From: Eubacteriales bacterium
GTDB lineage: Bacteria; Bacillota; Clostridia; Lachnospirales; Lachnospiraceae
Reading direction: 5' to 3'
Assembly (NCBI GenBank): GCA_030524545.1
Contig: JAUNGM010000006.1
Location: 62,001-126,000 of the forward strand
DNA: 64,000 nucleotides
The notes below the pieces were generated by a model. The model was given only the letters and a program-made list of their open reading frames with translations, did no database searches and was not told the DNA's origin. Shown here one piece after another: positions 42,422 through 64,000 of the stretch. Each line of letters opens with the position of its first letter. Within the stretch, counting starts at the first letter, position 1. The translations under genes were made by a program, and so were the position numbers.

Positions 42422-42901
42422 ATGTTAGACCAGTCTTATTACAAAAAGGCGGATGAGATTATCGAGCATTACGGCAGAAAAGCCGGATCGTTAATTCCCA
42501 TCATGCAGGACATCCAGGCAGAGTACCGTTACCTGCCGGGAGAACTTCTCACCTATGTAGCAGCCGAAATCGGCGTAACAGAGGCTAAGGCATACAGCGT
42601 AGCTACTTTCTATGAGAACTTTTCCTTTGAGCCAAAAGGAAAGTACATCATCAAGGTCTGCGACGGAACAGCCTGTCATGTAAGAAAGTCCATGCCAGTG
42701 AAGGAAGCCATGATGAAAGAGCTTGGCTTAAGCCACAAGAAGCACACGACAGATGATATGATGTTTACCGTAGAGACAGTATCCTGTTTGGGTGCATGCG
42801 GATTAGCACCTACATTGACTGTCAATGATGAAGTACATCCCAAGATGACACCGGAAAAAGCTGTTGAGCTGCTGAATGGATTGAGAGGTGAAAAGGCATG
42901 A
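42422..42901 (+). CDS. hydC: Electron-bifurcating [FeFe] hydrogenase, NuoE-like subunit (HydC/HndA)
   Basis: A 159-residue thioredoxin-like [2Fe-2S] subunit. The four ligands are C80, C85, C122 and C126 (VCDGTACH and SCLGACG). ATFYENFSF is also a NuoE-family mark. It forms the small subunit of the NAD- and ferredoxin-dependent hydrogenase with the next two genes. RBS AAGGAGGG precedes ATG 42422. Its stop overlaps the hydB ATG by 4 bases. Confidence 0.94.
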   Translation: MLDQSYYKKADEIIEHYGRKAGSLIPIMQDIQAEYRYLPGELLTYVAAEIGVTEAKAYSVATFYENFSFEPKGKYIIKVCDGTACHVRKSMPVKEAMMKELGLSHKKHTTDDMMFTVETVSCLGACGLAPTLTVNDEVHPKMTPEKAVELLNGLRGEKA

Positions 42902-44769: not shown

Positions 44770-44784
44770 AAGGGAGGATATACT

Positions 44785-48842: not shown

Positions 48843-48889
48843 AAAAGAAATAAAGATTTAATGTATGAATAGTGTTGGAGAAGAAAAAT

Positions 48890-50344
48890 ATGTATAAGAA
48901 ATCAGCACAGGGTTGGTTGAAGCATTGGGATTTTATTCTGATGGATGTGGTTTGCCTGCAAATCGCTTTTGTGATTGCGTATCTTTCACGCCTGGGAATC
49001 AGGAACCCATATAACGATCAGCTCTACCGTAACCAGGCAATTGTACTTATTTTCTGTCAGGTTTTTGTAGCCTTTTTTGGTCAGACATTTCGTGATATTT
49101 TAAGGCGCGGATATTATGTGGAGTTTATAAAAACGGTGAAACATGTATGCGCGGTCATGCTCCTTGATATGTTGTATATGTTTATGACCCAGCAATCCGT
49201 TTCCTATTCACGTCTGACATTTATTATTACGGCTGCCGTATATTTCATTCTGGCATATGCTCAGCGTGTAGCATGGAAAGCATTTCTTGTAAAAAGGGGA
49301 AAGGGAACCGCCGGTAAGCGTTCCATGGTTGTCATCACTGTATGGGATACGGCCAGAGATGTATTAAAAAGGCTGGATATTAATCCTTATGATGGTTTTG
49401 CTGTCACCGGAATTGCATTACTTGACAAAAATCTTACCGGGCAGTATATTAGAGGCGTTCCGGTTGTGGGAGATGCAAAGAGCATTAAGGATTATGTGTG
49501 TCGGGAATGGGTAGATGAAGTCTTTGTCAGTATTCCGGATGACGCTGAATATCCCAAGAGCCTTGTCGATGCATTCATCCTCATGGGAGTGACCGTACAT
49601 ATGACGCTTTCTGAAATCGATAAGGTCAGTGCCGGTAAGCAGCATGTAGAGAAAATGGGTGATTATACGGTTCTCACCACCAGCATCAATATGACAACAC
49701 CGAAGCAGCTTCTCTGGAAACGTCTGATCGATATTATGGGAGGTCTGGCAGGATGTCTGTTGACGGGAATTCTGTTTATTTTCGTTGCGCCGGCTATTTA
49801 CATAAAGTCTCCGGGGCCGATCTTCTTCTCGCAGATTCGAATCGGTAAGAACGGAAGGAAGTTTAAGATTTATAAATTCCGAAGTATGTATATGGATGCG
49901 GAGGAGCGTAAGAAGGAACTGATGGAGCAGAACAAGGTGAAGGATGGATTCATGTTCAAGATGGACTTCGATCCCAGAATCATCGGCAGTGAGAAGCTGG
50001 ATAAGAACGGTAACCCCAAGGGCATCGGCAATTTCATCAGAAAAACTTCAATCGATGAATTCCCACAGTTCTGGAATGTGCTGAAGGGCGATATGAGCCT
50101 GGTAGGGACAAGGCCGCCGACAGTAGATGAGTGGGAGAAATACGATCTTCATCATAGAGCTCGAATGGCTATCAAGCCCGGTATTACAGGAATGTGGCAG
50201 GTAAGCGGACGAAGCGATATTACGGATTTTGAAGAAGTTGTTCGTCTGGATACCGAATATATAGAGAACTGGAGCATTGGACTGGATATTAAGATTTTGG
50301 GCAAAACGGTTTTGACGGTGCTTCACAATGATGGTGCGATGTAA
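48890..50344 (+). CDS. Polyprenyl-phosphate glycosyl-1-phosphate transferase (initiating sugar transferase)
   Basis: A 484-residue membrane enzyme that starts repeat-unit assembly by moving a sugar phosphate to undecaprenyl phosphate. The first 130 residues form four hydrophobic helices, then a Rossmann-like CoA_binding_3 domain (VPVVGDAKSIKDYV), then the catalytic bacterial sugar transferase domain from about 285: membrane helix, KSPGPIFFSQIRIGKNGRKFKIYKFRSM, KTSIDEFPQFWNVLKGDMSLVGTRPP and GITGMWQVSGRSD. Start: ATG 48890 with TTGGAGAAG; GTG 48872 is in frame but overlaps that site. It has two possible promoters and begins the locus. Confidence 0.94.
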   Translation: MYKKSAQGWLKHWDFILMDVVCLQIAFVIAYLSRLGIRNPYNDQLYRNQAIVLIFCQVFVAFFGQTFRDILRRGYYVEFIKTVKHVCAVMLLDMLYMFMTQQSVSYSRLTFIITAAVYFILAYAQRVAWKAFLVKRGKGTAGKRSMVVITVWDTARDVLKRLDINPYDGFAVTGIALLDKNLTGQYIRGVPVVGDAKSIKDYVCREWVDEVFVSIPDDAEYPKSLVDAFILMGVTVHMTLSEIDKVSAGKQHVEKMGDYTVLTTSINMTTPKQLLWKRLIDIMGGLAGCLLTGILFIFVAPAIYIKSPGPIFFSQIRIGKNGRKFKIYKFRSMYMDAEERKKELMEQNKVKDGFMFKMDFDPRIIGSEKLDKNGNPKGIGNFIRKTSIDEFPQFWNVLKGDMSLVGTRPPTVDEWEKYDLHHRARMAIKPGITGMWQVSGRSDITDFEEVVRLDTEYIENWSIGLDIKILGKTVLTVLHNDGAM

Positions 50345-50443: not shown

Positions 50444-51340
50444 ATGAAAGGAATTATTTTAGCAGGCGGTTCAGGGACAAGACTGTATCCATTGACAAAG
50501 GTAACGTCAAAACAATTGCTGCCTATATACGACAAACCTATGATCTATTATCCGATGTCCGTTTTGATGAATGCGGGTATCCGGGATATTTTGATTATTT
50601 CGACACCAAGCGATACACCGAGATTTCAGGAGCTGCTTGGCAGCGGAGCACAATTTGGCGTGAATTTAACGTATGCCGTACAGCCGTCACCGGATGGCCT
50701 GGCACAGGCTTTCATCATCGGAGCTGATTTTGTTGGTGATGATACGGTTGCTATGGTGTTAGGGGACAATATTTTTGCAGGACATGGTCTGAAGAAACGT
50801 CTGCAGGCCGCCGTACATAATGCAGAGAACGGAAAAGGAGCCACTGTATTTGGATACTATGTAGATGATCCGGAACGGTTCGGTATCGTAGAATTTGATC
50901 AGAACGGACATGCTGTTTCCATAGAAGAAAAGCCGCAGAAACCCAAAAGTAATTATTGCGTAACCGGGCTGTATTTTTACGATAACCGTGTCGTTGAATT
51001 TGCCAAAAATCTGAAACCTTCGGCTCGTGGAGAATTGGAGATCACAGATTTAAACCGCATCTACCTGGAAAAAGGTGATCTGAATGTCGAATTGCTCGGC
51101 CAGGGATTTACGTGGCTGGATACAGGAAGTCATGAGAGTCTGGTGGATGCTACGAACTTTGTAAAAACTGTAGAAAATCATCAGCATCGTAAGATTGCCT
51201 GTCTGGAGGAGATTGCTTACCTGAACGGCTGGATCAGCCGGGAGGAACTGCTTTCTGTCTATGAAGTGATGAAGAAAAACCAGTATGGACAGTATCTGAA
51301 GGATGTGCTGGATGGAAAATATATGGATGCGCTTAGATAG
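50444..51340 (+). CDS. rfbA: Glucose-1-phosphate thymidylyltransferase
   Basis: A 298-residue nucleotidyltransferase making dTDP-glucose from dTTP and glucose 1-phosphate, the first step to dTDP-deoxysugars. The nucleotide signature is [20 protein letters not shown] (residues 8-27), followed by [45 protein letters not shown] and [13 protein letters not shown]. Length is standard. RBS AGAGGGAGA. RfbB, C and D are not in the window. Confidence 0.96.
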
Positions 51341-51726: not shown

Positions 51727-52830
51727 ATGTCTATTTTGGTAACAAGATCCTCTATGCCGAAACTGGAGGACTATATTGAAGAAATTAGACCTATTTTTGA
51801 GAGCCATCGTTTAACTAATATGGGACCCGTTTATAAACAGTTCCAGCATCAGTTAATTGATTATTTGGGAGTACCGGAGCTTTCTCTGTTTGTAAATGGT
51901 CATATGGCTTTAGAAATGGCTATCCATGCGTTGGGGCTGAGACGTGAGGGCGGAGAAGTCATTACAACTCCATTTACATTCGTTTCTACGACACATGCCA
52001 TTGTAAGAAATGGATTAAAGCCTGTATTCTGTGACATTAAACCAGATGATTATACAATGAATCCTGAGAAAATTGAGGACTTGATTACAGATAAGACTGT
52101 CGCAATTATTCCTGTTCATGTTTATGGAAATTTATGTGATGTGGAAGCCATAGACAAAATATCTAAGAAGCATAATTTGAAAGTGATTTATGATGCAGCA
52201 CATGCATTCGGCGTTACATATAAAGGAGTCGGAGCCGGAAATTTTGGCGACGCATCTATGTTTAGTTTCCATGCAACTAAAGTATTCAATACGATTGAAG
52301 GAGGAGCAGTCGCTTTTCATGATCAGTCATTTCGTGAAAAACTACATGAGTTAAAAAATTTTGGTATTCATGGTGTCGACGATGTGATGGCAGTTGGAGG
52401 CAATGCGAAGCTGGATGAATTCCGCGCTGCTATGGGTATCTGTAATTTGCGGCGTATGGACGAGTGCATCACCAGGCGGGCTGAAGTAGCAGCAAGATAT
52501 AATGAGCGCCTTGGTAATATTCCGGGAATCAGACTTGGAAAGCCAAAAGAAGGCGTTATGCCGAATCATGCTTATTATCCGGCGTATTTTGATGAAAATG
52601 TTTTTGGAAAGAGCCGTGATGATGTGTTTGAACAGTTGAAAGAGAATGATATTTATGCAAGAAAATATTTCTATCCCGCTGTAAATGAAATGGCTTGTTA
52701 TAAAGATGGCGGTTACGCGGAAACTCCGATCGCACATGATGTTTCCATGCATATTCTGACATTGCCGATATATGAGGAACTGGCTTTGGAAGATGTGGAT
52801 CGGATATGTGATGTAATTCTTAATAAATAA
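51727..52830 (+). CDS. DegT/DnrJ/EryC1-type PLP-dependent aminotransferase
   Basis: A 367-residue PLP enzyme that usually aminates a keto-sugar nucleotide, here probably a precursor of the polymer. Family marks are TTPFTFVSTTHAIVRNG, DAAHAFGV, FSFHATKVFNTIEGG with the PLP lysine K185, and AMGICNLRRMDE. The C-terminal part ILTLPIYEEL is also standard. The exact sugar substrate cannot be told. RBS AAAGGAGA. From here on the DNA is clearly more AT-rich than upstream. Confidence 0.93.
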   Translation: MSILVTRSSMPKLEDYIEEIRPIFESHRLTNMGPVYKQFQHQLIDYLGVPELSLFVNGHMALEMAIHALGLRREGGEVITTPFTFVSTTHAIVRNGLKPVFCDIKPDDYTMNPEKIEDLITDKTVAIIPVHVYGNLCDVEAIDKISKKHNLKVIYDAAHAFGVTYKGVGAGNFGDASMFSFHATKVFNTIEGGAVAFHDQSFREKLHELKNFGIHGVDDVMAVGGNAKLDEFRAAMGICNLRRMDECITRRAEVAARYNERLGNIPGIRLGKPKEGVMPNHAYYPAYFDENVFGKSRDDVFEQLKENDIYARKYFYPAVNEMACYKDGGYAETPIAHDVSMHILTLPIYEELALEDVDRICDVILNK

Positions 52831-52848: not shown

Positions 52849-53706
52849 ATGCAGGATATAACTGAATTATCTAAATCGCAGAAAGCTGAGATTGCAAGTT
52901 ATATAGCGAGAGATAACCTTGCAATAGTAAATGCGAAAGTTAAACAGGTGACAGTTAAAGATACCTTTTATACCCGTTATGGGAAGCGTGCTATAGATAT
53001 CGTTATTTCTTTGTTCGCATTGATTGTCACCTTGCCGATTAATTTCTTTATTGCAATAATAACTTTTTTTGATGTTGGTTCTCCTATTATTTTTAAACAG
53101 CATCGTGTAGGAAGAAATGAGAAGATTTTTACAATTTACAAATTTCGAAATATGACTAATGAAACGGATGCTAATGGAGAATTGCTGCCACCGTCTGAAC
53201 GAGTAACAAAATGGGGAAACTTTGTAAGAAAGACCTCTTTGGATGAACTTCTTAATTTTGTATCAATTTTGAATGGTTCAATGAGTATTATCGGACCTAG
53301 ACCATTATTGGAATATTATGCAGAGCGATTGAATGTACGCCATAAAAAAATTTATGCAGTTCGTCCGGGATTGGAGTGTCCTACTTTAAATAAGGTTGAC
53401 CATACATTATCTTGGCAGGAACGTTTAGAGAATTATATTTGGTACGTGGAAAACTGCAGTTTTTGGATTGATGTGAAACTGGCATTCAGAATTGTTCAAA
53501 TTGCATTTGATCGAAAAAGTACTGCACAAAGAGCTGACGCAAGCCATGGAGGGTTGCTGGGGTATGACTTGGAAGGAAATGTGATTTATACCAAATCTGT
53601 ACCGGATCATTTTGTAGAAGAGTTTTGTAAAAAGCACGGCTATAAGAATTTAGAAGATGCAGTTTCTATTCGCATAAAGGATGCGAATAAAGGTAAGAAT
53701 ATTTAG
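52849..53706 (+). CDS. Sugar transferase (polyprenyl phosphate glycosyl-1-phosphate transferase, short form)
   Basis: A 285-residue single-helix transferase of the PglC/WcaJ catalytic type. RYGKRAIDIVISLFALIVTLP is the membrane entry helix (residues about 43-65); catalytic parts are FKQHRVGRNEKIFTIYKFRNM, KTSLDELLNFVSILNGSMSIIGPRPL and VRPGLECPT. The Glu after SLD is the metal/catalytic residue. A second initiating-type transferase after the one at 48890 suggests either two polymers or that this region arrived as a separate unit. RBS GGGGAAAG is weak. Confidence 0.9.
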   Translation: MQDITELSKSQKAEIASYIARDNLAIVNAKVKQVTVKDTFYTRYGKRAIDIVISLFALIVTLPINFFIAIITFFDVGSPIIFKQHRVGRNEKIFTIYKFRNMTNETDANGELLPPSERVTKWGNFVRKTSLDELLNFVSILNGSMSIIGPRPLLEYYAERLNVRHKKIYAVRPGLECPTLNKVDHTLSWQERLENYIWYVENCSFWIDVKLAFRIVQIAFDRKSTAQRADASHGGLLGYDLEGNVIYTKSVPDHFVEEFCKKHGYKNLEDAVSIRIKDANKGKNI

Positions 53707-53743: not shown

Positions 53744-55033
53744 ATGAAAAAATATGAAAACAAACGTTTACTGATTATTGGAGCGACATCTTATTTTATT
53801 GATGTTATTCAAGAAGCAAAGAAAATGGGAATCTATACAATATGTACGGATTATAATCCAAATGCAATTGCGAAAAAATATGCAGATAAATCGTATGATG
53901 TTAATACGGTTGATCATGAAGCCATTTTACAATTAGCAAAAGATGAAAAAGTAGATGGCGTTTTTGTTGCGTGGTCTGATGCGAATTTATATACAGCACA
54001 GTATGTATGCGAAAAACTTGGAATGCCATTTTATGCAACGAAAGATCAATTGGATTGCGCAGTTAACAAAGATTATTTTAAACAAATGTGCCGCAATTAT
54101 AACGTTCCGTGTACGAAACAGTATCAACTGGATGAATCGTTTAAGAGAGAGGATCTTGACCAGATTGAATATCCTGTTATCGTGAAACCGGTAGATAATG
54201 GAGGTTCACGTGGAATTACGGTATGTAATTGTGAAGAAGAATTGAAGGAAGCATTTACAAAGGCATTAAGTTATTCTAAACGTAAAAATGTGATAGTGGA
54301 GCAGTTTATGGAAAATCAGGGAAAAACTATCAGCGTTAAATATTTAATTCGTGATGGGGTTCCATATCTGCTTAGTGTAGGAGATCGGCGAGTTCTGGAT
54401 GCGCATGATGGAAAAGCATTGATAACAAGTGCTGCTATTTATCCTGCAAGTATTACGCAAAGGTATAAGGACACTCTTGATGAAAAAGTTCGTAAGATGC
54501 TGATAGAAATGGGCTTCCGCAATGGTCAATTGTTTATGGAGGCAATTCCGGCAGAGGATGAAATTTATTTTTATGAAATGGGTTACAGGTTAAGTGGCGG
54601 TATAACCTACCATATTACAGATTCATTAACTGGTATAAATGGTATGCGCATGCTGATTAACTTTGCACTGAGCGGTGAAATGTGTGATCAAGAGACTGCT
54701 GAACGTATTGATCCTTTCATGCAGGGGAAAGCCGCATGTAGTTTTGCGATTTTGATGAAACAAGGCACAGTGACTAAAATTAATGGTTTAGAAGAAGTTC
54801 GACAAAGTCCCAATGTGCTGGATATTACACAATACTATAAAGAGGGAATGACCGTAGAGCCAAGAGATGTTGGGAATGTGGGACAGATGTTTGCTCGTAT
54901 TACAACGATTGGAAAAAATCGTGAAGATTTAGTGCAGGTGATTCATCAAATTGAGGAAAGAATATGTATTTTGGATGAAAATGGTGAGGACATGTTTTTA
55001 AGAGCATTTGATCCAAATACAGTTTTGGAATAA
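53744..55033 (+). CDS. ATP-grasp ligase, carbamoyl-phosphate-synthase-like
   Basis: A 429-residue cytoplasmic ATP-grasp enzyme that would join a carboxylate to an amine via an acyl phosphate. The N-terminal fold LLIIGATSYFIDVIQEAKK resembles a PreATP-grasp domain. The ATP-grasp core has YPVIVKPVDNGGSRGI near residue 145 and FYEMGYRLSGG near residue 280 (Mg ligands). Similar enzymes amidate or add amino acids to sugars and peptides. Start: ATG 53744 with AGAGGAA. In this cluster it is a candidate for coupling an opine-like amino acid to another acid. The substrate is unknown. Confidence 0.82.
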   Translation: MKKYENKRLLIIGATSYFIDVIQEAKKMGIYTICTDYNPNAIAKKYADKSYDVNTVDHEAILQLAKDEKVDGVFVAWSDANLYTAQYVCEKLGMPFYATKDQLDCAVNKDYFKQMCRNYNVPCTKQYQLDESFKREDLDQIEYPVIVKPVDNGGSRGITVCNCEEELKEAFTKALSYSKRKNVIVEQFMENQGKTISVKYLIRDGVPYLLSVGDRRVLDAHDGKALITSAAIYPASITQRYKDTLDEKVRKMLIEMGFRNGQLFMEAIPAEDEIYFYEMGYRLSGGITYHITDSLTGINGMRMLINFALSGEMCDQETAERIDPFMQGKAACSFAILMKQGTVTKINGLEEVRQSPNVLDITQYYKEGMTVEPRDVGNVGQMFARITTIGKNREDLVQVIHQIEERICILDENGEDMFLRAFDPNTVLE

Positions 55034-55044
55034 AGGAGAGAAAA

Positions 55045-56301
55045 ATGATAGGAATCAATACAGTCAGTTCGCAATCTGGACGGGCGTATTTTGCAGATTA
55101 TTTGAAAAATGGCTATCAAATGATTGGATATGCACGTCACTCTATGCATGGCACAACATTCATTAATGCTGTAAGTAGTGCTGGAGGGATTTATATGGAT
55201 CGTCCTCAAAACAAGAATCAGGAGAGTAAAGTCTTTTTACCGTTGAAGGACAGCCGCGTTACGCAGGATTTGGAGGAATTAGTATCGAATTCTGAACTGA
55301 TTATTTTAGCCGAACCATCTCACTATTTTGTTCAGAGTGTAAAAGAAATGGTAGAAGCCGGACTGCTAAAATACCGCGTGCCTTTGGTTCTGTCTCCCTC
55401 AAGAACCTTTTCTTCTCCATATTTATGGGAAATTTTGGGGGAAGGGTATCCCATTGCTTGTTTTTCAACATGTGCGTATTCTTGTAAAGCACCAGAACCG
55501 GATGTTGCATATATAAAACGACGCAAGCGTAATTGGATTATTTCGCTTGAAGGAGAGTTTTATGAATCACAGATAGGATTATTGCAGGAGTTGTTTCCAC
55601 AGGCTGTCATTAATCATATTCCAGCTACGACATCACTCGGTAATGTAGGTGCAATTTTTCATCCTGCTACATATTTGTTAAATTACGATGAAATAAAACG
55701 CTGTGAAAGTTCAGGAAAGACTTTTTCTTTCTATATGGATGGAATTGCCGCAAGGCCAGAAGTGGGAGAAGTTTTGGAGGCAATTGATCAAATGCGTTTG
55801 GAGATTGCTGCGTGGTTTGGATATCCGGTATTTGGATTAAAAAGGAAACCATTTGAGGAACAGTGGGCAGAACTAATGCAAAATATGCGTATAAAAGAAA
55901 AAACAGATGAGAATTTACGGGAATTACGTAGGATTCGTAGGGATAGTCTGCAAATTCTGAATAGTTCTATTACATCATGTAAACACTGGTTAGATTATAC
56001 ATACGGTGTGAAACGTATTCCGGATGAGCCGCTGTATAAGGCAATTGGTCGTACGCCTACATATCAGAAAAATAGTGTACCACAGGAACGGTATGTCAAT
56101 GAAGATATTTCAACGGGTTTACTTCCATTGAGAAATATGGCAGCTCGATTTGGAATTGATACAAGTGCTGCGGATTACGTTTTGGAAATATTTCAACGTT
56201 ATTATAATTTTGAAGATGCAGTGGGAGTGCGCACACTAAATGAGTTTAGTGATGAGTATATTAAAAATTACTTACAAGGTAAATATTTTAAATTAATTTG
56301 A
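55045..56301 (+). CDS. Opine (octopine/nopaline) dehydrogenase-like protein
   Basis: A 418-residue protein whose C-terminal two-thirds match the octopine/nopaline dehydrogenase helical domain: SLGNVGAIFHPATYLLNYDEI (residues about 195-215), FYMDGIAARPEV and a later YGVKRIPDEPLYKAIGRTP. Such enzymes join an amino acid amine to pyruvate or 2-oxoglutarate with NAD(P)H, giving secondary amines (opines). The N-terminus (MIGINTVSSQSGRAYFADYL) lacks the usual GxGxxG nucleotide motif, so cofactor binding is unusual or altered. RBS AAAGGAGAG. A second opine-synthase-like gene follows at 60495. Confidence 0.75.
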   Translation: MIGINTVSSQSGRAYFADYLKNGYQMIGYARHSMHGTTFINAVSSAGGIYMDRPQNKNQESKVFLPLKDSRVTQDLEELVSNSELIILAEPSHYFVQSVKEMVEAGLLKYRVPLVLSPSRTFSSPYLWEILGEGYPIACFSTCAYSCKAPEPDVAYIKRRKRNWIISLEGEFYESQIGLLQELFPQAVINHIPATTSLGNVGAIFHPATYLLNYDEIKRCESSGKTFSFYMDGIAARPEVGEVLEAIDQMRLEIAAWFGYPVFGLKRKPFEEQWAELMQNMRIKEKTDENLRELRRIRRDSLQILNSSITSCKHWLDYTYGVKRIPDEPLYKAIGRTPTYQKNSVPQERYVNEDISTGLLPLRNMAARFGIDTSAADYVLEIFQRYYNFEDAVGVRTLNEFSDEYIKNYLQGKYFKLI

Positions 56302-56332
56302 CAGTGCTTAATAGATATTAAGGAGATATGTA

Positions 56333-58183
56333 ATGAAAAATTTATATCTGGCAATGACATTAGGGGCAGATCCTCATACTGTAGGGATTTATAAAGCGGT
56401 TCGTATCGCAAATTTATTGGGAATTCCCAGTAAAATTCTTGCTACAGATATGGATGATGAGAAAAAAATTCAGATCATAAAAGAAGAGGCCCCAGTGTTC
56501 CTTGGGTTGAGTTATCGTTTAAGTCCTGATAAGGCAGTATATGAATTACAAAAATTTTTAAAAAAAATGGAGAATGCAGGCTTAATAAGGGATGAACAAT
56601 TTATCTGTTTTGCCGGGCTGCTTCCGACTTTGGATTTAGTAAGAAAGTTGGGAATAGATAAAAAATATAATATTTCGTTGATGGGAAGCTATAAGGATAT
56701 AGATAGGACTACATCTGAGACGATAGATTTTTTTCGCATTGCCACGTCTGACCAAAGGAAAAAAATAATTAAAATGGTACATGATGAATCAGAACCAGAA
56801 CGCATCAAAATAATTGATGAAATAGCAAAAGATGTTTTTCGTAATGATGCATATCTTCTGGAACCTCCATTGCCTGTTCCGAGTCAGAAGGCTGTTTTAT
56901 CTATTACAGATAGAATTGATGAATCCAAAATTCCAATTATTCGCAGTCATTATGGAGTGCCGGCACCGGATATTAATCCGACTGTGGATGGCATTCGGAG
57001 AATAGCTCAAGCCAGAGCTATTGATGAATTAAGTCTTGGTTCAAGTGATCTTTCACAACGGTATTATGGGCATCCGGAGATGTTTTTAGACAGAAAGAAT
57101 GATGGCGGGGTTCCGTATAAAAACCGGGAAGATCTCGAACGTATTTTTGCAGCTTCACGTGACGGTAATTTTCCATCTGTAAAACCATATTGTCACGTGA
57201 ACAATATTATTCCTTTTATTGATGAATGTTTGGATATTGGTATGTTAAAGGGAGCTCATCAGGCTATCCCTTTATTTTGGTTTAATGAATTGGATGGGAG
57301 AGGTCCAATGACAGTGCCAGATTCCATTGAAGAACATCTTCGGGCAGTACAATATCTTGCTAAGAAGGGTATTCCCGTTGAAATGAATGATCCGAATCAA
57401 TGGTCTTCACGTATGGTACATGACACACTTTTTGTGGTTAGTTATTGCCTGTTGTCTTCTGTAATGTATAAATATGGTGTTAAAAATATGGTTGTACAAT
57501 GCCAGTTTAATAAACCAGCAACAACAGGAGATTATGCAGATCTGGCAAAAATGATGACAGGGCAATATTTTATCGAGCAGTTACGTCCTGCTGGTAATCG
57601 TACAAGAGTACTTTATGAATGCCGATCAGGTATTGAACATTTTAGTACTGATCAGGAATTAGCCAAATTTCAGTTGGCACGCAGCACAATTCTACAGATG
57701 TTAATTAATCCGAGTATTTTACATTTAGTTAGTTATTGTGAAGCTGATCATGTTGCGACGGCAGATGATGTAATTGAAAGCAGCAAGATTTTGCGTCATG
57801 CAGTAAGGTTATTCCGTGAAAATGAACAGGATATTCGTCGTGCTGTGAAGTGGGATGTTGTCCAGAAAAGAAGTGATTTCTTAAAAGAAGAGGTACGTGT
57901 CGTTTTAGATGAATTGGTTGCGTTAAGTGGGCATCGGAAGATTACGAATCTTCGTGAGTATCATCAGTATCTTGGACAGGCAAAAACGCTCCAGGGTGCT
58001 ATGCAATATGGAATTATGGCAGCCCCCGGTATTACTCATAAAAAATATGCACATCCTGAGCTTTTAACTAAGATTGGGGAGTATGGAGTGATGGATTGCT
58101 ATCGTAACTGGGATGATAATAATCCGATGCGGGAAAAAGAAAGGCTTGCAGATATTAGAAAAAAGTACAATTTGAAGTATTAG
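56333..58183 (+). CDS. Putative one-chain cobalamin-dependent mutase
   Basis: A 616-residue protein. The start carries the cobalamin-binding motif D13-x-H15-x-x-G18 in LGADPHTVGIYKAVRIANLLG, followed by VFLGLSYRLSPD (S-x-L motif) and FAGLLPTL; this is a base-off/His-on B12-binding Rossmann domain of about 150 residues. Residues about 200-480 look like the barrel of glutamate mutase epsilon or aminomutases: IPVEMNDPNQWSSRM, then YGVKNMVVQCQFNKPATTGD. The total equals MutS plus MutE of glutamate mutase fused in one chain. The canonical last GG motif of the B12 domain is not clear. Reaction unknown; a carbon-skeleton or amino mutase on an amino acid is my inference. RBS TAAGGAGATA. Confidence 0.6.
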   Translation: MKNLYLAMTLGADPHTVGIYKAVRIANLLGIPSKILATDMDDEKKIQIIKEEAPVFLGLSYRLSPDKAVYELQKFLKKMENAGLIRDEQFICFAGLLPTLDLVRKLGIDKKYNISLMGSYKDIDRTTSETIDFFRIATSDQRKKIIKMVHDESEPERIKIIDEIAKDVFRNDAYLLEPPLPVPSQKAVLSITDRIDESKIPIIRSHYGVPAPDINPTVDGIRRIAQARAIDELSLGSSDLSQRYYGHPEMFLDRKNDGGVPYKNREDLERIFAASRDGNFPSVKPYCHVNNIIPFIDECLDIGMLKGAHQAIPLFWFNELDGRGPMTVPDSIEEHLRAVQYLAKKGIPVEMNDPNQWSSRMVHDTLFVVSYCLLSSVMYKYGVKNMVVQCQFNKPATTGDYADLAKMMTGQYFIEQLRPAGNRTRVLYECRSGIEHFSTDQELAKFQLARSTILQMLINPSILHLVSYCEADHVATADDVIESSKILRHAVRLFRENEQDIRRAVKWDVVQKRSDFLKEEVRVVLDELVALSGHRKITNLREYHQYLGQAKTLQGAMQYGIMAAPGITHKKYAHPELLTKIGEYGVMDCYRNWDDNNPMREKERLADIRKKYNLKY

Positions 58184-58224
58184 CGGTTTGGGATAAGTGT
58201 GAAAATATACAGGAGAGTGATGAT

Positions 58225-59328
58225 ATGGCAGATAGATCAAAGATGGGTTTGCTTTTAGATCATGCATATATTTATGGCAAAACGTTAAAGTATTGTGTTA
58301 ATAAATCAAGATATGCAAAAAAGAGAATTAAGATGATTGGAGGAGGATATAAGGGAAGCCAAAAAGAATATAAAGAAACGGTATTAGAATACTGGAAACC
58401 TTATGGTATACGTCCAAGAAGATATTGGTATACATTATATTGCTCAAGAGAAAATTCATATGATCCAAGATATATTCCAGATAATATATGGTTTGGAAAG
58501 ATTTATCCATATTTTAACAATATTATTGCGCGTAATACTTATGCAGATAAGGGGTTTTTTGATACTTTATTTTCTGATTTAAAGCGCCCAGAAACTATTG
58601 TAAAAAATATGGCGGGAAAATACTATGATGCAGATATGAACAGAATGTCAAAGGAAGAAGCAGTAGAGCGCTGTCTTAAGGCTAAGAATTGGGTAATTAA
58701 AGCTTCAACTAATACTGGTGGGGGAAAGAGTGTACAGTTTTTTGATTTTTCTGGTGAGAATGACAGAATTAAAATAGAAAAACTGTTTTCTGAATATAAA
58801 GTGAATTTTATTGTACAGAATTTAGTTGAGCAGCATCCTGATTTAGCAAGAATTCATGATAAGTCATTAAATACGATACGTGTTCAATCGTTTTTCTTTA
58901 AAGATAAGGTACATATTTTATCATCACAGCTTCGTATGGGAAGCGGGGAATCTCGTCTTGATAATGTGTCTTCAGGAGGATGCGCTTGTGCAATTGGCGA
59001 AGATGGCTGGTTAGTCGGGAAAGCAGTCACTAGAAAATCAGAATGGACGGATCATCATGAAAGTGGAATCTATTTTAAAGATGTACGAGTTCCTTCATAT
59101 GATAAAATCCTTGAAATTGTAAAGAAAAAACACCCGCAGTTGCCTTATTTTGGAATTATAGGATGGGATTTTGCGGTTGATGCGGAAGGGGAACCGGTTT
59201 TTATTGAAATAAATGCAACATCTGAGCCTAATCAGATAGCAAGTGGTCCAACTTTTGGGGATTTGACTCAGGAGGTTCTGCAGGAAGTTTTCATTGATAA
59301 AACGATGAAAGATTACTTTATTAATTAA
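58225..59328 (+). CDS. Sugar-transfer-associated ATP-grasp protein
   Basis: A 367-residue ATP-grasp protein of the sugar-transfer-associated type (ATPgrasp_ST). The core has NWVIKASTNTGGGKSV (ATP lysine and glycine loop, about 152-168), RIHDKSLNTIRVQSFF, and near the C-terminus GWDFAVDAEGEPVFIEIN, where D and E/N bind magnesium. The family lies in capsule and exopolysaccharide clusters and presumably adds amino acids to sugar acids. RBS CAGGAGAG. It is the second ATP-grasp of the cluster. Confidence 0.85.
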   Translation: MADRSKMGLLLDHAYIYGKTLKYCVNKSRYAKKRIKMIGGGYKGSQKEYKETVLEYWKPYGIRPRRYWYTLYCSRENSYDPRYIPDNIWFGKIYPYFNNIIARNTYADKGFFDTLFSDLKRPETIVKNMAGKYYDADMNRMSKEEAVERCLKAKNWVIKASTNTGGGKSVQFFDFSGENDRIKIEKLFSEYKVNFIVQNLVEQHPDLARIHDKSLNTIRVQSFFFKDKVHILSSQLRMGSGESRLDNVSSGGCACAIGEDGWLVGKAVTRKSEWTDHHESGIYFKDVRVPSYDKILEIVKKKHPQLPYFGIIGWDFAVDAEGEPVFIEINATSEPNQIASGPTFGDLTQEVLQEVFIDKTMKDYFIN

Positions 59329-59347
59329 TTGATAAGAGTGAGGAATT

Positions 59348-60502
59348 ATGAAAATAAGTTTTACAGGCGATTTAACCTGTGATAAACCGCTTTTAAAGGC
59401 TGCGTATTTGAATGACGAATTTCATTTTGAGAATGTGTTTTTTCATGTTTCGGAGTTGTTTAGGGATTCTCAGTATGTAGTATCAAATTTAGAAACGACT
59501 TTTTCAGAAGAGGGAAATTATAATAAAAAGGCTTATTGCTATAATTCGCCTAAAGTGTTCCTGGATGCAGCATGTAAGGCAGGAATTAATATTTTTAGTA
59601 TTGCAAATAATCATTGCTGTGATGGGGGATTACCGGGACTGAAAAATACAGTTTCTGAATTGGAGAAAAGAAATTTATTATACATGGGTTATAAAGGAAG
59701 AAGTTGTACTGTGCAGCAGGATGGGCAAAGAGTTACATTTTTGTCTTATACCTACGGAATTAATGATAACGGATACGATTTAGAGGATATAGAAAAAAGC
59801 GTAAATGTGTTAAGACCCTATGCCAGGGGAAAAGATACGGGATTCAGAAAAGTAATACCAATGTCTTGGCGCAGGAGAATACGTAAAACAATTCGCTTAT
59901 TAAAAGGAAAGCCTACTTTGGCAAAATCTGTAGATGACTATCCTGTAAATGAATCATTCTGTGAAAAGATCAAAGAAGATATTCGTGATGCAAAAGAGAA
60001 TTCTGATTTTGTATGTGTGTATCCGCATATGGGAGGGCAGTTTAATTTAGAAATAGGTAGCTTCAGTCGGACTATGGCAAAGTGTTTTGAAGACGCAGGT
60101 GCAGATTTGATTGTAGCTAATCATGCTCATATTGTACAGAAGTACGAAAATGAGACAATTCCTATATTTTACTGTCTAGGGGGATTAAGTATTTCCCCTA
60201 GTGCATCGTACTTAATTCAGGACGATATGCCGCAATATTCTATTGTCGTGCATCTCTATATTAGTGAGAAAAAGCATAAACTTACATTTTCAATTATAAA
60301 ATGTGTGGAGGATGAAAACGGATATGTTACGATATGGCCTGTAGATAGTCTTTATAAATCGCTCACAGAAAATAATAAGAGACATCAGCTAAAGAAAGAA
60401 GCAGTTCTTATCTATAACAGACTTTTGTCTACAAATGTAGATTGGGAAGATTTTGAGCTAAAAAAAGAATACGAAATAAAAGAGGTTAAGAGCAATGTGT
60501 AA
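59348..60502 (+). CDS. CapA family protein (PGA_cap metallophosphoesterase-like), copy 1
   Basis: A 384-residue protein of the CapA/PgsA family, a calcineurin-like fold linked to poly-gamma-glutamate and other polymer synthesis. Motifs are ISFTGDL (metal Asp), VVSNLETTF, IFSIANNHCCDGG (NNH) and LIVANHAHIVQ. Unlike B. anthracis CapA it has no signal peptide or membrane helix, so it would act in the cytoplasm. The stop codon overlaps the next gene by 8 bases. A second, related CapA gene lies at 62794. Confidence 0.88.
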   Translation: MKISFTGDLTCDKPLLKAAYLNDEFHFENVFFHVSELFRDSQYVVSNLETTFSEEGNYNKKAYCYNSPKVFLDAACKAGINIFSIANNHCCDGGLPGLKNTVSELEKRNLLYMGYKGRSCTVQQDGQRVTFLSYTYGINDNGYDLEDIEKSVNVLRPYARGKDTGFRKVIPMSWRRRIRKTIRLLKGKPTLAKSVDDYPVNESFCEKIKEDIRDAKENSDFVCVYPHMGGQFNLEIGSFSRTMAKCFEDAGADLIVANHAHIVQKYENETIPIFYCLGGLSISPSASYLIQDDMPQYSIVVHLYISEKKHKLTFSIIKCVEDENGYVTIWPVDSLYKSLTENNKRHQLKKEAVLIYNRLLSTNVDWEDFELKKEYEIKEVKSNV

Positions 60503-61475
60503 ACGTACAATGGGATTTCTAATTAGTCATAAAAATAATGAGAAAAGACGAGCATTATTACCAAAAGATTTGTCAATGATTAAAAATTGTGATTGTCTTT
60601 ATTTTGAGTCCGGTTACGGAGAGAGTGTGAATTGCACAGATGAGGAATATTTACGTTATGGAGTACATGTGGTATCACGTGAAGAGGTGTTAGAGTGTGA
60701 TATTATTGTCGATGTTAAATTAGGTGATGCAGATTATTTGGAAGAGATTGAAGATGGAAAGATTTTATGCGGATGGGCACATGCTGTTCAGGGGATTGAA
60801 TTTACATCCGTTTGTTTAAAGAAAAATTTTACAGTCATAGCATGGGAAGAAATTTTTGAACATGGCCAGTATATATTCCATAGAAACAGGGAAGTTGCCG
60901 GGGAAGCAGGAATTCTTCAAGCATTTTTATACTGTGGAAAGATGCCATATGATACTAAGGTTGCCATTTTAGGAAATGGTCAGACAGCAAAAGGAGCCTT
61001 AAGAGTACTTAACGGATTAGGTGCAGAAGTTGATGTATATGGAAGAAATCTTGAGAATCTTTTTAAACGGAACATGGACCAATATGATGTTCTGGTTAAC
61101 TGTATTATGTGGGATACCAACAGAACAGATCGTATCATCTATCGCGAAGATTTAAAACGTTTAAAAAAGGGTTGTATGATTGTTGATATTAGTTGTGATC
61201 CAAATCTTGAAATAGAGACCACACATGCCACCACAATTGATAATCCAGTTTATGTTGTAGATGGTATTATCCATTATGCAGTAGATAATACACCAGCAAT
61301 GTTTCCTTATACAGTTACGAAAGTATTGAGCAGCGGTTTTGCCCTTTATGTGGATCAAATTCTTGAGAACCGTTTGTCAGAGTCGATTAATAAAGCAACT
61401 GTAATAAAAGAGGGTAATATTAAGGATATCAATATTCGAAAGTTCAGAGAAAGAATCGGGGAATTTTGTAAATGA
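60495..61475 (+). CDS. N5-(carboxyethyl)ornithine synthase-like dehydrogenase
   Basis: A 326-residue protein of the alanine dehydrogenase/CEOS family. CEOS of Lactococcus condenses ornithine (or lysine) with pyruvate and NADPH to N5-(carboxyethyl)ornithine. The opening GFLISHKNNEKRRALLP is the CEOS-type start. Lys75 (VDVKLGD) and His96 (WAHAVQG) match the pyruvate-binding and catalytic residues of alanine dehydrogenase, and GNGQTAKGAL (160-169) is the nucleotide loop. Alanine dehydrogenase proper is unlikely, since the C-terminal part is not the standard one. Overlaps the CapA gene by 8 bases and the next gene by 4. Confidence 0.85.
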   Translation: MCKRTMGFLISHKNNEKRRALLPKDLSMIKNCDCLYFESGYGESVNCTDEEYLRYGVHVVSREEVLECDIIVDVKLGDADYLEEIEDGKILCGWAHAVQGIEFTSVCLKKNFTVIAWEEIFEHGQYIFHRNREVAGEAGILQAFLYCGKMPYDTKVAILGNGQTAKGALRVLNGLGAEVDVYGRNLENLFKRNMDQYDVLVNCIMWDTNRTDRIIYREDLKRLKKGCMIVDISCDPNLEIETTHATTIDNPVYVVDGIIHYAVDNTPAMFPYTVTKVLSSGFALYVDQILENRLSESINKATVIKEGNIKDINIRKFRERIGEFCK

Positions 61476-62737
61476 TTAAGATACGCAATCTTCAAAAAAA
61501 ATATGTTAATAAACGGGTTCGTATTAGTGCAACTATAGATATTCCGGATGACGCGGCATCAAAGTGGTATCAACATTCTTTGGAACAAGAGAAAACAAAA
61601 GAAGATTACAGTTATGTTGTGGAAGACTATCTTGATTGGATCCAGGGGGAAAGAGAATTATATTATGAAGTTGACAAAGAATTTGAGTCTTTTCTTGTGA
61701 CGGAAACATCAGATTGTTTTGTTGCAGGTATATTATATTATGCCATGGCATCAGGTCATGATATTTTTTGTGAGAAACCAGTTTCTCAACAATTATTAGA
61801 GAATTTAAATAACACATTGATTCCTTTAGTCTGCAAGGCTTCCAATGTTCCAATAATAAAAGTTATTGCTAAGCCATTTTATGGAAAAATAGGAGAGGGC
61901 ACGGAAATCGGAACGGGTATGAGTGCAGGAGTTGATTCCCTTCATACAGTATATTTATATGGAACTCATACAGATCCAGAGCAGAAACTGACTGTTTTGA
62001 CGCAGTTTAACGTGGGGTCTGAAAGATATTATTTTAAACATGAGAAAAACATGGAAGGGTTAGAACGATATGAAAAACAGTTTCAGGAGACTAAAAAAAG
62101 CCGAGTAAAAAGAGCAAAAGAGGTGGCGGAAGCTCTTGGAATGAAATATTTGCAGGTGGATTCCAATATTCAGGATATTTATCAGGGGTTATTTGAAGAG
62201 TCTCATATTTATCGTACAGCTTCTGCAGTTTTGGCTTTACAAAAGTTATTTAAGAAATATTATATAGCTTCTAGTGGATGTTCTCATTTGGATTATCAGC
62301 CGTCAATTTATAAAGACCCAGCCCATTATGAACAGATTAGCGTTCCAATGATGAGTACTGTGACCACTCGGATTGTTTCGGCGTCAAAAGCATATACTCG
62401 AATCGATAAAATAAATGATTTGAAAGATTTTCCGCTTGCTAAGAGATATCTTTGTGTATGCGGGAAGCATGAGAAACCATGTTATCATTGTGGTAAAGAG
62501 AGAAGAACTTTTGTTATTTTAGATATTCTTAATTGTTCAGAAAATTTTAGCGAGGTTTTCGACATAAATAAAATAAAAGAAGTAAGAAATGAAACATATT
62601 ACTGGTTATTAGTGGAAAAGGATAAAAAGAATCCTGCAACGCTTTACATTTATGAAAAAGCAGAGGAAAAAGGTCTGATTCCGCAGAAAGCAAAAATGAA
62701 ATATTTTTTGCACAAAATGAAACATTTGTTTCATTGA
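61472..62737 (+). CDS. PP-loop (N-type ATP pyrophosphatase) family protein
   Basis: A 421-residue protein of unknown function. The segment GTGMSAGVDSLHTVYLYG (about residues 147-164) looks like an ATP-pyrophosphatase P-loop (SGGxDS, with A replacing one G). Near residues 328-345 is CVCGKHEKPCYHCGKERRT, a four-cysteine knuckle of the kind CxxC-x-RT seen in QueC-like and asparagine-synthase-related proteins. Such enzymes adenylate a carboxylate before amide or thiol transfer. The ATGA overlap with the CEOS-like gene indicates a tight functional pair. Substrate unknown. Confidence 0.6.
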   Translation: MIKIRNLQKKYVNKRVRISATIDIPDDAASKWYQHSLEQEKTKEDYSYVVEDYLDWIQGERELYYEVDKEFESFLVTETSDCFVAGILYYAMASGHDIFCEKPVSQQLLENLNNTLIPLVCKASNVPIIKVIAKPFYGKIGEGTEIGTGMSAGVDSLHTVYLYGTHTDPEQKLTVLTQFNVGSERYYFKHEKNMEGLERYEKQFQETKKSRVKRAKEVAEALGMKYLQVDSNIQDIYQGLFEESHIYRTASAVLALQKLFKKYYIASSGCSHLDYQPSIYKDPAHYEQISVPMMSTVTTRIVSASKAYTRIDKINDLKDFPLAKRYLCVCGKHEKPCYHCGKERRTFVILDILNCSENFSEVFDINKIKEVRNETYYWLLVEKDKKNPATLYIYEKAEEKGLIPQKAKMKYFLHKMKHLFH

Positions 62738-62793
62738 TAGAATATTTTTTGAGTTTTGAAAAATATTTCATTTCATGATTAGGAGAATCTGAT

Positions 62794-64000
62794 ATGTCAA
62801 AAGTTAAGATCACTTTTTTAGGCGATATTATGTGTGAACCCTTACTTATGAAGGCTGCGCAAAACAAATATAATACATATAATTTTGATTGTGTATTTCA
62901 AAATATCCAAGAATTACTTTCTGAATCTGATTATGTAATTGGTAATTTAGAAACACCGTTAGCCGGAAAAGAGGCTGGTTATACACAGGGATTATTTGAA
63001 TTTAATGCACCTGATGAATTTGCAGATGCAGTAAAAAAGGGAGGGATTGATTTAGTCAGTACTGCAAATAATCATTGCCTTGATCGTGGAATTGATGGAT
63101 TACTTCGTACAATTCGAGTATTAGATGAGAAAGGAATAGGACATACGGGGACCTTTTTGCCAGAACAGAAACGTGATAATGCCTTTTTCTTTGAAATAAA
63201 AAATACCCGAATGGCAGTTGTCTCATATACTTATGGAACAAATTATTATGAAAACCGTATATCCCTGGATAAAATGCAAGCAAATATGATTAATCTTCTT
63301 CGTCCGCAGGAAGAATCCTGTTATATATTGAATAAGTCGACGAAAAAGCCAGCTCTTAGGAAGCGGATATGGGGAAGGTTTTTACGTAATTTTCCATTGG
63401 AGCAACAGTATGCAATTAAAAGGGCACTGCGTTTACCTTATAATATGGCACGTGAAGACAATAATTTAAACAAGTCTACAATGCTGCCATATATTCAGAA
63501 AATGCAGAGGGATATTAAATCTGCAAAAGAAGAAGCTGATTTTGTGTTTTTTTATCCTCATGTAGGGGGACAGTTTAATCTTGAACCTGGCCGCATTTCG
63601 AAGTATGTTTTTGAAAAAGCAGTAGAGTCAGGGTGTGATGCGATTATAGCATCGCATCCTCATATTGTACAGAGAGCAGAGTATTATGGAAAGGTTCCGT
63701 GTTTCTACTCACTTGGTAACTTCAGCATGTCACCGAATTCCGTATACTTATTGCATGAAAATCTGCCAGACTATGGTATTGCTGTTCATATATATATAGA
63801 TGAAGGCAAAATTATTAAAGTGACTTTTTCTATTCTGAAAATTGTCGAGAGTAGTAAAGAACCATTGTCTGTTTATACTGTTGATGAATTATACGGTTTA
63901 CTAAAATCTACTTCTGAAAAAACTAAGTTAATGGAGGAAGTTTCACAAATTTATCAAGTTGTAACAGGAACACAGTTGAAAAATGGTTTAGTGAAACGGG
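62794..64000 (+). CDS. CapA family protein, copy 2 (partial, runs off the window)
   Basis: At least 402 codons, open to the right edge. ATG 62794 follows TAGGAGAA. The motifs repeat those of copy 1: ITFLGDIM, VIGNLETPL, VSTANNHCLDRG, FFYPHVGGQFN and IIASHPHIVQR, so it is a paralogue with the same calcineurin-like fold and no signal peptide. The two CapA proteins bracket the opine-synthase/PP-loop pair. The partial end prevents a length comparison. Confidence 0.88.
   Translation, partial: MSKVKITFLGDIMCEPLLMKAAQNKYNTYNFDCVFQNIQELLSESDYVIGNLETPLAGKEAGYTQGLFEFNAPDEFADAVKKGGIDLVSTANNHCLDRGIDGLLRTIRVLDEKGIGHTGTFLPEQKRDNAFFFEIKNTRMAVVSYTYGTNYYENRISLDKMQANMINLLRPQEESCYILNKSTKKPALRKRIWGRFLRNFPLEQQYAIKRALRLPYNMAREDNNLNKSTMLPYIQKMQRDIKSAKEEADFVFFYPHVGGQFNLEPGRISKYVFEKAVESGCDAIIASHPHIVQRAEYYGKVPCFYSLGNFSMSPNSVYLLHENLPDYGIAVHIYIDEGKIIKVTFSILKIVESSKEPLSVYTVDELYGLLKSTSEKTKLMEEVSQIYQVVTGTQLKNGLVKR

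Follow-up and report, generated by a model that had tools for sequence, protein, structure and literature searches.

An opine-type dehydrogenase (OpDH) and a B12-dependent mutase-like protein are encoded by a near-obligate gene pair that is conserved across phyla. Here the pair is described from a stretch of 64,000 nucleotides of an Eubacteriales bacterium of the Lachnospiraceae (GCA_030524545.1, contig JAUNGM010000006.1), hereafter the window, which spans bases 62001-126000 of its contig (159,990 bases; genome size 4.34 Mb). In the window, the two genes lie within a one-strand cluster of surface-polymer genes, next to two ATP-grasp ligases. Judged from the protein families involved, and with confidence slightly better than even, the pair would make an opine-derived amino acid that the ATP-grasp ligases attach to a 4-amino sugar in a polymer of the Wzx/Wzy type.

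The pairing emerges from two kinds of search. A pattern scan, covering one genome per species and detecting close relatives only, returned 24 relatives of the window's 616-amino-acid (aa) mutase (44-57% identity) from Bacillota, Bacteroidota, Chloroflexota, Balneolota and Myxococcota, collectively called 616-type below. OpDH is present in the fetched DNA of 20 of these 24 loci, and is the immediately adjoining gene in 14; three of the other four have an OpDH match elsewhere in the genome (with a stop counted within the match in two), and OpDH was not found anywhere in the genome of the last, L021. Profiles run against 398 genomes of the same phylum as the window, with E values up to 1e-3 accepted for the mutase and up to 1e-8 for OpDH, detected the mutase in 90 (the window's genome included; two of them, G103 and G211, weak) and OpDH in 97, and brought to light a more distant mutase family of about 550 aa. 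Both are present in 87 genomes, OpDH alone in 10 and the mutase alone in three, which leaves OpDH in 10 of the 308 mutase-free genomes; the Fisher p value for this co-occurrence ignores kinship and is not to be read literally. The OpDH match lies no more than 2.5 kb from the mutase in at least 80 of the 87 genomes for which a mutase position is listed (the window's own excluded). Moreover, G135, scored as OpDH-negative, has a divergent OpDH adjoining its mutase (L073), and the same holds for G443 (L072). Across 21 loci, protein distances of OpDH and mutase are correlated with r = 0.90, a value reached in none of 20000 permutations, shared ancestry not being removed from the figure. Searches of plasmids returned no mutase and one weak match to OpDH. 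Closer to home, the window mutase was not found in any of the 60 other genomes searched (36 of the genus and 24 of the order, many of them incomplete), and the module therefore looks accessory. An earlier note on this DNA had suggested that its whole gene set might form a conserved unit; the dehydrogenase-mutase pair does so across phyla, whereas the exact set of eight genes was seen nowhere else. The central idea of that note, opine-type dehydrogenases, a B12 mutase coupled to one of them and ATP-grasp ligases within a surface-polymer locus, is supported.

By its profile matches, OpDH is related to the N-(1-D-carboxylethyl)-L-norvaline dehydrogenase. The Octopine_DH helical domain (PF02317) is matched with 86.9 bits against a gathering score of 30, and the best match of the OpDH profile in the PDB, which extends across most of the protein, is the norvaline enzyme itself (1bg6, 3.9e-24), followed by octopine dehydrogenase (0.0019) and glycerol-3-phosphate dehydrogenase (0.049). 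His206 and Asp354, which we take to be the catalytic pair of opine dehydrogenases, are invariant in 21 of 21 OpDH proteins and align with the corresponding stretches of 1bg6. What sets OpDH apart from these enzymes is its coupling to a B12 mutase. As the evidence on OpDH consists of its family and the His/Asp pair, it could also be a CH-NH or hydroxy-acid dehydrogenase of the same fold that acts on the mutase product, rather than an opine enzyme; this is unlikely, given that the norvaline dehydrogenase, and not the glycerol-3-phosphate enzyme, is the nearest solved relative.

The mutase had been called a putative B12 mutase in the earlier note, an assignment that rests on its homologues. Close to the N-terminus, a D-P-H-T-x-G motif is invariant in 24 of 24 aligned 616-type proteins, an alignment that leaves out L021, which is cut by a contig end; with this truncated protein, which has Cys for Asp, the DxHxxG motif is found in 24 of 25. 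The Pfam B12-binding domain (PF02310) matches 18 of 24 616-type members weakly (E up to 1, best 6.8e-6) and not the window protein. According to profile-profile comparison with hhalign, the 616-type is homologous to a family of about 550 aa, here called 550-type (probability 100%, E 1.7e-101). In the latter, where the B12 domain is plainer, the Asp position is occupied by Cys or Asp in 27 of 27 proteins (Asp in two), and the B12-ligand His and the motif Gly are present in 53 of 53 mutases of both types, the truncated L021 left out. Residues invariant across both subfamilies are Arg204, His206, Arg323, Glu350, Lys406, Arg431 and Glu470.

It is through the 550-type that the connection to glutamate (methylaspartate) mutase, GlmS/GlmE, can be seen. 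Methylaspartate mutase S matches 18 of 21 550-type proteins (best 1.5e-6), a frequency shared by other corrinoid models such as MtgC (18), and glutamate mutase E matches the second half in four of 21 (best 1.4e-5). The hhalign comparison with glutamate mutase E gives a probability of 82% (E 1.1e-5), and in five genomes the mutase genes attain the PF06368 cut-off (4.4e-14 in L074). Among PDB entries, the 550-type profile finds 4jgi, a 'putative uncharacterized protein', as its best match (7.6e-9), besides the trimethylamine methyltransferase corrinoid protein (4.2e-5) and ornithine aminomutase (2.9e-4), while the 616-type profile finds nothing convincing (its best match, E 0.07, is to designed or unrelated chains, and 4jgi has an E value of 1.5). 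A combined profile of both subfamilies reaches glutamate mutase with a probability of 38% (E 3.4e-4). MutL is a helper of glutamate mutase, and a MutL-like gene adjoins the 550-type mutase in L029 and L037 (that of L029 was named by eye and is tied to Pfam MutL via a BLAST match to the L072 fusion), whereas a MutL domain is fused to the mutase in L073 (by Pfam) and L072 (by BLAST).

These resemblances, including the MutL partners or fusions in four loci, are what could be expected if the mutase were an ordinary glutamate mutase, converting glutamate to 3-methylaspartate, which OpDH would then N-carboxyalkylate or reduce. The substrate site seems to speak against this, though not clearly. All 14 glutamate mutase E proteins aligned (from 30 loci fetched) have Arg66, Arg149 and Lys326, and in the profile alignment, which at 82% is weak, these residues correspond to His, Tyr and Val in 21 of 21 550-type proteins; Arg100 is kept as Arg in seven of 21, and Glu171 is replaced by Pro or Ser. 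Arg66, Arg100 and Arg149 presumably form the glutamate mutase substrate site, and the listed residues as a whole are taken to have substrate or cofactor roles. On the other hand, Glu330 is retained in 21 of 21, and the invariant Arg154 and Arg233 of L030 sit two positions N-terminal to where Arg66 and Arg149 align, so that the site may be shifted. Further differences are that the mutase is one chain and that the 616-type lies beyond direct profile comparison with glutamate mutase, which fails. Taken together, an ordinary glutamate mutase is improbable; the protein probably belongs to the same superfamily and acts on a different substrate. An apparent OpDH-mutase fusion in L074 (939 aa) was discarded, as its first 390 residues match no query and resemble a frame read-through upstream of the gene.

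All eight open reading frames from 53744 to 64000 that the earlier note had read as contiguous, overlapping genes were found on the + strand, co-oriented and closely spaced, with overlaps of 8 bases at 60495/60502 and 4 bases at 61472/61475. Pfam and NCBIfam matches likewise confirmed the two initiating transferases, RfbA and DegT upstream. The features of the cluster within the window, in order, are:

48872..50344, + strand: initiating sugar-1-phosphate transferase (CoA_binding_3 and Bac_transf; PF02397, 1.9e-61)
50444..51340, + strand: RmlA/RfbA glucose-1-phosphate thymidylyltransferase (TIGR01207, 481.6 bits, over cut-off)
51727..52830, + strand: DegT-type sugar aminotransferase (nearest model DesI TIGR04427, 6.3e-87, 292 of 650 bits, below cut-off)
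52849..53706, + strand: second initiating sugar transferase (PF02397, 3.3e-48; homologue in 6 of 24 mutase loci)
53744 (alternatively 53681, an upstream ATG)..55033, + strand: ATP-grasp ligase 1, L-amino-acid-ligase/PylC-like (CPSase_L_D2, 1.4e-13; LAL_C2, 31.3 bits)
55045..56301, + strand: opine-type dehydrogenase OpDH, 418 aa (PF02317 Octopine_DH, 1.9e-24)
56333..58183, + strand: B12-dependent mutase-like protein, 616 aa, with B12 domain and barrel by homology (motif D13-P-H15-T-x-G18; homology to the 550-aa family)
58225..59328, + strand: ATP-grasp ligase 2, sugar-transfer associated, ATPgrasp_ST (PF14397, 1.1e-34; homologues in 8 of 24 mutase loci)
59348..60502, + strand: CapA/PGA_cap protein 1 (PF09587, 5.8e-46)
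60495..61475, + strand: AlaDH/PNT-family dehydrogenase, N5-(carboxyethyl)ornithine-synthase (CEOS)-like (PF05222 and PF01262 over cut-offs)
61472..62737, + strand: PP-loop-motif protein, no family model (motifs TGMSAGVDS and CGKERRT)
62794..64000, ending just beyond the window, + strand: CapA/PGA_cap protein 2, 406 aa (PF09587, 5.2e-62; full length L026:9794-11014)

Past the window end, where the cluster extends to L026:13831, follow a Wzy_C protein (PF04932) and a flippase-like membrane protein of 509 aa, which has nine hydrophobic segments and no Pfam match. The one-strand cluster thus comprises 14 genes, starting at about 48 kb with the gene at 48872; three of its products, the mutase, the PP-loop protein and the 509-aa protein, match no family over cut-off. 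All terminator-like patterns from 53744 to 62794 are intragenic. The guanine-plus-cytosine fraction is 0.45-0.49 over 42-48 kb and 0.34-0.42 from about 48 kb onward (0.34-0.38 over 54-64 kb).

From the families, the cluster can be arranged into a route of four steps. Firstly, RmlA, RmlB (encoded elsewhere in the genome) and DegT would build an amino sugar, and the two initiating transferases would place sugars on the lipid carrier. Secondly, OpDH would use NAD(P)H to couple an amino acid to a 2-oxo acid by reductive amination, and the mutase would rearrange the carbon skeleton of the resulting opine or of its precursor. Thirdly, ATP-grasp 1 and ATPgrasp_ST may activate the carboxylate of the product and form an amide with an amine, which would most simply be the 4-amino group of the sugar or another amino acid. 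Finally, the CapA, Wzy-like and flippase-like proteins would complete and export the polymer. Wzx/Wzy loci for polysaccharides with amino-acid-decorated sugars are a familiar kind of system, and the cluster shares with them the initiating transferases, RmlA, DegT, Wzy_C and the flippase-like protein, but differs in holding the opine/mutase module.

Regarding the ligation step, ATP-grasp 1 resembles the L-amino acid ligase BL00235 and PylC in combining an ATP-grasp with LAL_C2 (31.3 bits against a cut-off of 29.4) and a PylC-like N domain over the Pfam cut-off. Its first PDB match is 4dim (6.9e-24) and its second BL00235 (3vot, 2.6e-17 over residues 5-373), while it misses the cut-off of the PylC equivalog, at 41 of 248 bits. 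Homologues are encoded in 11 of 24 mutase loci. In the Bacteroidales loci L015 and L016, the mutases are 93% identical to each other and the ATP-grasp 1 proteins are 40% and 27% identical to that of the window; here the ligase seems to have been swapped while the mutase stays.

The direction of the amide bond is where this proposal departs from the earlier note, which had the opine-type amino acids linked to a polymer carboxylate. Opine-like amino acids amide-linked to uronic acids are known from O-polysaccharides, N-(1-carboxyethyl)lysine of Proteus and Providencia being an example; either partner could be activated by ATP-grasp or PP-loop chemistry, and the genome does encode an NDP-sugar dehydrogenase, its sole match over the model cut-off, on another contig. 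The cluster itself, however, has an amino-sugar route (RmlA, DegT) and neither an NDP-sugar dehydrogenase nor any other uronate-forming gene, and eight of the 24 mutase loci, all classed as surface-type (for the short contigs L006 and L021 this class rests on the ATP-grasp and DegT genes themselves), contain a homologue of the amine-forming DegT. For these reasons an amino-sugar acceptor is preferred, and linkage through the amine to a uronic acid is considered doubtful.

The strongest evidence for joint function of pair and ligases is the recurrence of the same partner classes in surface loci of different origin, 'surface' being a label assigned by us from gene neighbours. In nine Bacteroidota loci (L010, L011, L012, L015-L017, L019, L022 and L024), a homologue of ATP-grasp 1 immediately precedes the mutase. 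All nine also encode one or more of the following: an initiating transferase, ATPgrasp_ST, an aldo/keto reductase, CapA and DegT. L010, the sole one inspected gene by gene, has a Polysacc_synt protein and glycosyltransferases too. A metagenome-assembled genome (MAG) of a Clostridia from goat colon (L023, changed from 'other' to 'surface' after a neighbour check) combines a GT2 glycosyltransferase, OpDH, mutase, ATP-grasp, a flippase-looking membrane protein, CapA and ATPgrasp_ST. Additionally, a single locus of a genome of the window's phylum (L048/L065) encodes DegT, a 319-aa protein, ATP-grasp 1, a 550-type mutase and OpDH. A Pfam tally (E up to 1e-10) covered 111 of the 116 proteins encoded beside 616-type mutases, without the five of L018; the most frequent families are ATP-grasp_4 (9), ATPgrasp_ST (7), Bac_transf (6) and aldo/keto reductase (6), followed by DegT, PGA_cap, the Ddl C-domain and Glycos_transf_1 with 5 each. 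Around the 550-type, the Ddl C-domain is commonest, with 5 of 90 genes; 90 of 114 neighbours were scanned, leaving out L067, L070, L071 and L074 because of overlapping frames, and L068 has no usable mutase frame. Individual D-Ala-D-Ala-ligase-type ATP-grasp genes near the pair were noted in the 550-type loci L057, L058, L059 (Pfam-checked) and L069, where they fall into one cluster, and in one 616-type locus (L020:7035-8105).

Trees of the mutases bear on how often this association arose. A single clade of 616-type surface mutases is rejected by the approximately unbiased test (p 1.1e-5 with L002, L006, L013 and L021 left out; p 2.1e-8 with all rows in), in tests that were chosen after the first tree had been seen and on trees of a quick kind with long-branch warnings. 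The L023 mutase is the sister of the window's in one tree (support 95) and unresolved in another, and the two group among mostly stand-alone pairs, mainly of Bacillota. The 550-type surface locus represents a further branch, so that the tree requires three changes of context, most simply three arrivals. As the surface 616-type mutases are not one clade, the pair seems to have become associated with these partner classes on more than one occasion.

This recurrence also bears on the idea that the pair is a general metabolic module (for instance in redox or amino acid breakdown) merely located in a polymer island. Numerous 550-type pairs, and roughly half of those of the 616-type, do lie outside recognisable surface loci, and the MutL-fused mutases (L072:6671-10324 and L073:5806-9507) adjoin, besides a divergent OpDH, a peptidase C26 and a transporter, a TRAP gene in L072 and an oligopeptide-type ABC in L073; these loci look like a catabolic branch of the pair. 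Nevertheless, with surface loci of the same partner classes on three separate branches of the mutase tree, and with the window pair tightly packed with ligases, this reading is rather unlikely. A separate observation concerns Amphibacillus, Halolactibacillus and Natronobacillus (L007, L009 and L002), where the DNA fetched around the pair encodes nothing homologous to the ligases or sugar genes of the window, the L002 contig being short. These are salt- or alkali-loving genera, and it is conceivable that such stand-alone pairs make a free product, for example a solute.

Several observations weigh against amide attachment of a rearranged opine to an amino sugar. Among the 14 cluster genes, no glycosyltransferase family other than the two initiating ones was found with Pfam and NCBIfam (three genes matching no family over cut-off), which is odd for a Wzy-type polymer and unlike the loci to which the cluster is compared. 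The aldo/keto reductase present in six relatives is missing from the window, and homologues of the window's ligases and sugar genes are absent near many pairs, as far as mechanical gene calls in the relatives reveal. In L016, OpDH lies outside its 21.8 kb, elsewhere in the genome, with one stop counted within the match. The window mutase has zero Pfam or NCBIfam matches, the 616-type profile has no useful match to glutamate mutase E (probability 2%), and no MutL match was found in the window's own genome; in favour of a B12 enzyme, the corrinoid adenosyltransferase family is present there. Lastly, gains and losses are indistinguishable among the three context changes.

A bolder reading of the same pair, less probable than any of the alternatives above, takes the N-(1-carboxyethyl) opine itself as the mutase substrate. 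An N-(1-carboxyethyl) group derived from pyruvate is a branched -CH(CH3)-COOH unit, and the glutamate mutase class interchanges such units with linear -CH2-CH2-COOH. The pair would then constitute a new two-step route to N-(2-carboxyethyl), or 'beta-opine', amino acids, which might be free products in Bacilli such as Halolactibacillus, and the MutL-fused branch would run the route backwards for breakdown. Surface-polymer loci would have acquired the pair repeatedly, with their ATP-grasps acylating amino sugars with the product. If true, the mutase would be an isomerase with a new substrate class.

Two genes of the cluster, the CEOS-like and the PP-loop gene, are additions not seen in the relatives; under the preferred amino-sugar reading, they would make or amidate a second such residue. 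Consistent with the claim that the locus encodes two opine-type dehydrogenases, the CEOS-like protein is an AlaDH/PNT enzyme and OpDH a member of PF02317, that is, of different families. Among the best 15 of 127 plasmid matches, the five top ones are annotated as N5-(carboxyethyl)ornithine synthase (29.0-33.8% identity, the highest over 84%), alanine dehydrogenases follow at 27.6-28.3%, and one more CEOS lies at 25.0%, so that the ranges overlap. The enzyme thus appears somewhat closer to annotated CEOS than to alanine dehydrogenase, the names being annotation and not assays; no curated model is met by the window protein, which misses the cut-off of TIGR00518.

The PP-loop protein carries a SAGVDS loop (TGMSxGVDS), which reads SCGVDS in a Paracoccus yeei plasmid homologue with 29% identity, CGKxRRT being common to both. 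It has no Pfam or NCBIfam match over cut-off and no convincing PDB match, and a role in amidation or ligation is a guess. The context of the Paracoccus yeei plasmid was considered as a clue, but the neighbours are of another kind and explained nothing. The recurrence with the same classes of partner, seen for the pair in Bacteroidota, the Clostridia MAG and the same-phylum genome, does not extend to these two additions: the PP-loop gene was found in one of 398 genomes of the phylum and one of 41 near relatives (the window's own both times), besides two Paracoccus plasmids, and no CEOS-like gene was found in the fetched stretches of the surface-type relatives.

The earlier note knew of no described cluster with this exact gene set, but a pair of this kind has been on record since 2009. 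A survey published in that year on the use of nickel, cobalt and B12 (PMC2667541; authors include Y. Zhang and V. Gladyshev) predicted, in its section on this family, a B12-dependent protein with an N-terminal B12 domain, 'always adjacent' to octopine/nopaline dehydrogenase in 11 genomes and with its function unassigned; a D-Ala-D-Ala ligase was reported nearby in several organisms, in agreement with the ATP-grasp families that rank first around the 616-type and the Ddl-type domain that does so around the 550-type. From context and taxa, the sequences not being compared, we infer that this family is the 550-type. That section describes neither a surface-locus branch nor a link to glutamate mutase and MutL. 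Later literature on the pair was not found by full-text searching, which misses most subscription papers, and what PMC6801904 says on pyruvate acetals has no bearing on it. A B12 family beside octopine dehydrogenase was thus already known, and the 616-aa branch and its surface-locus placement appear to be new.

The significance of the pair lies in a B12-type family that occurs in 90 of 398 genomes of one phylum without a known reaction having been found. With OpDH as a near-obligate partner and amino-acid ligases as recurrent neighbours, the field of candidates shrinks to opine-like amino acids, and the 2009 prediction is directly testable with two purified proteins. If the proposal is true, the outcome would be a new kind of surface-polymer building block and possibly a new B12 reaction.

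Some neighbouring genes complete the picture. Just upstream of the island (window 42422-46473), genes resembling NuoE/NuoF-type subunits and an iron-only hydrogenase were recognised by eye. Just downstream of the cluster (L026:13851-20000 into L027:1-1395), a secreted-looking protein of about 2500 aa is encoded, the first 900 aa of which match PKD/Ig-like and BNR-type repeat families, and the same contig carries a second capsule-type cluster with Bac_transf, LytR-CpsA-Psr and CpsB/CapC genes (L027:6568-10484).

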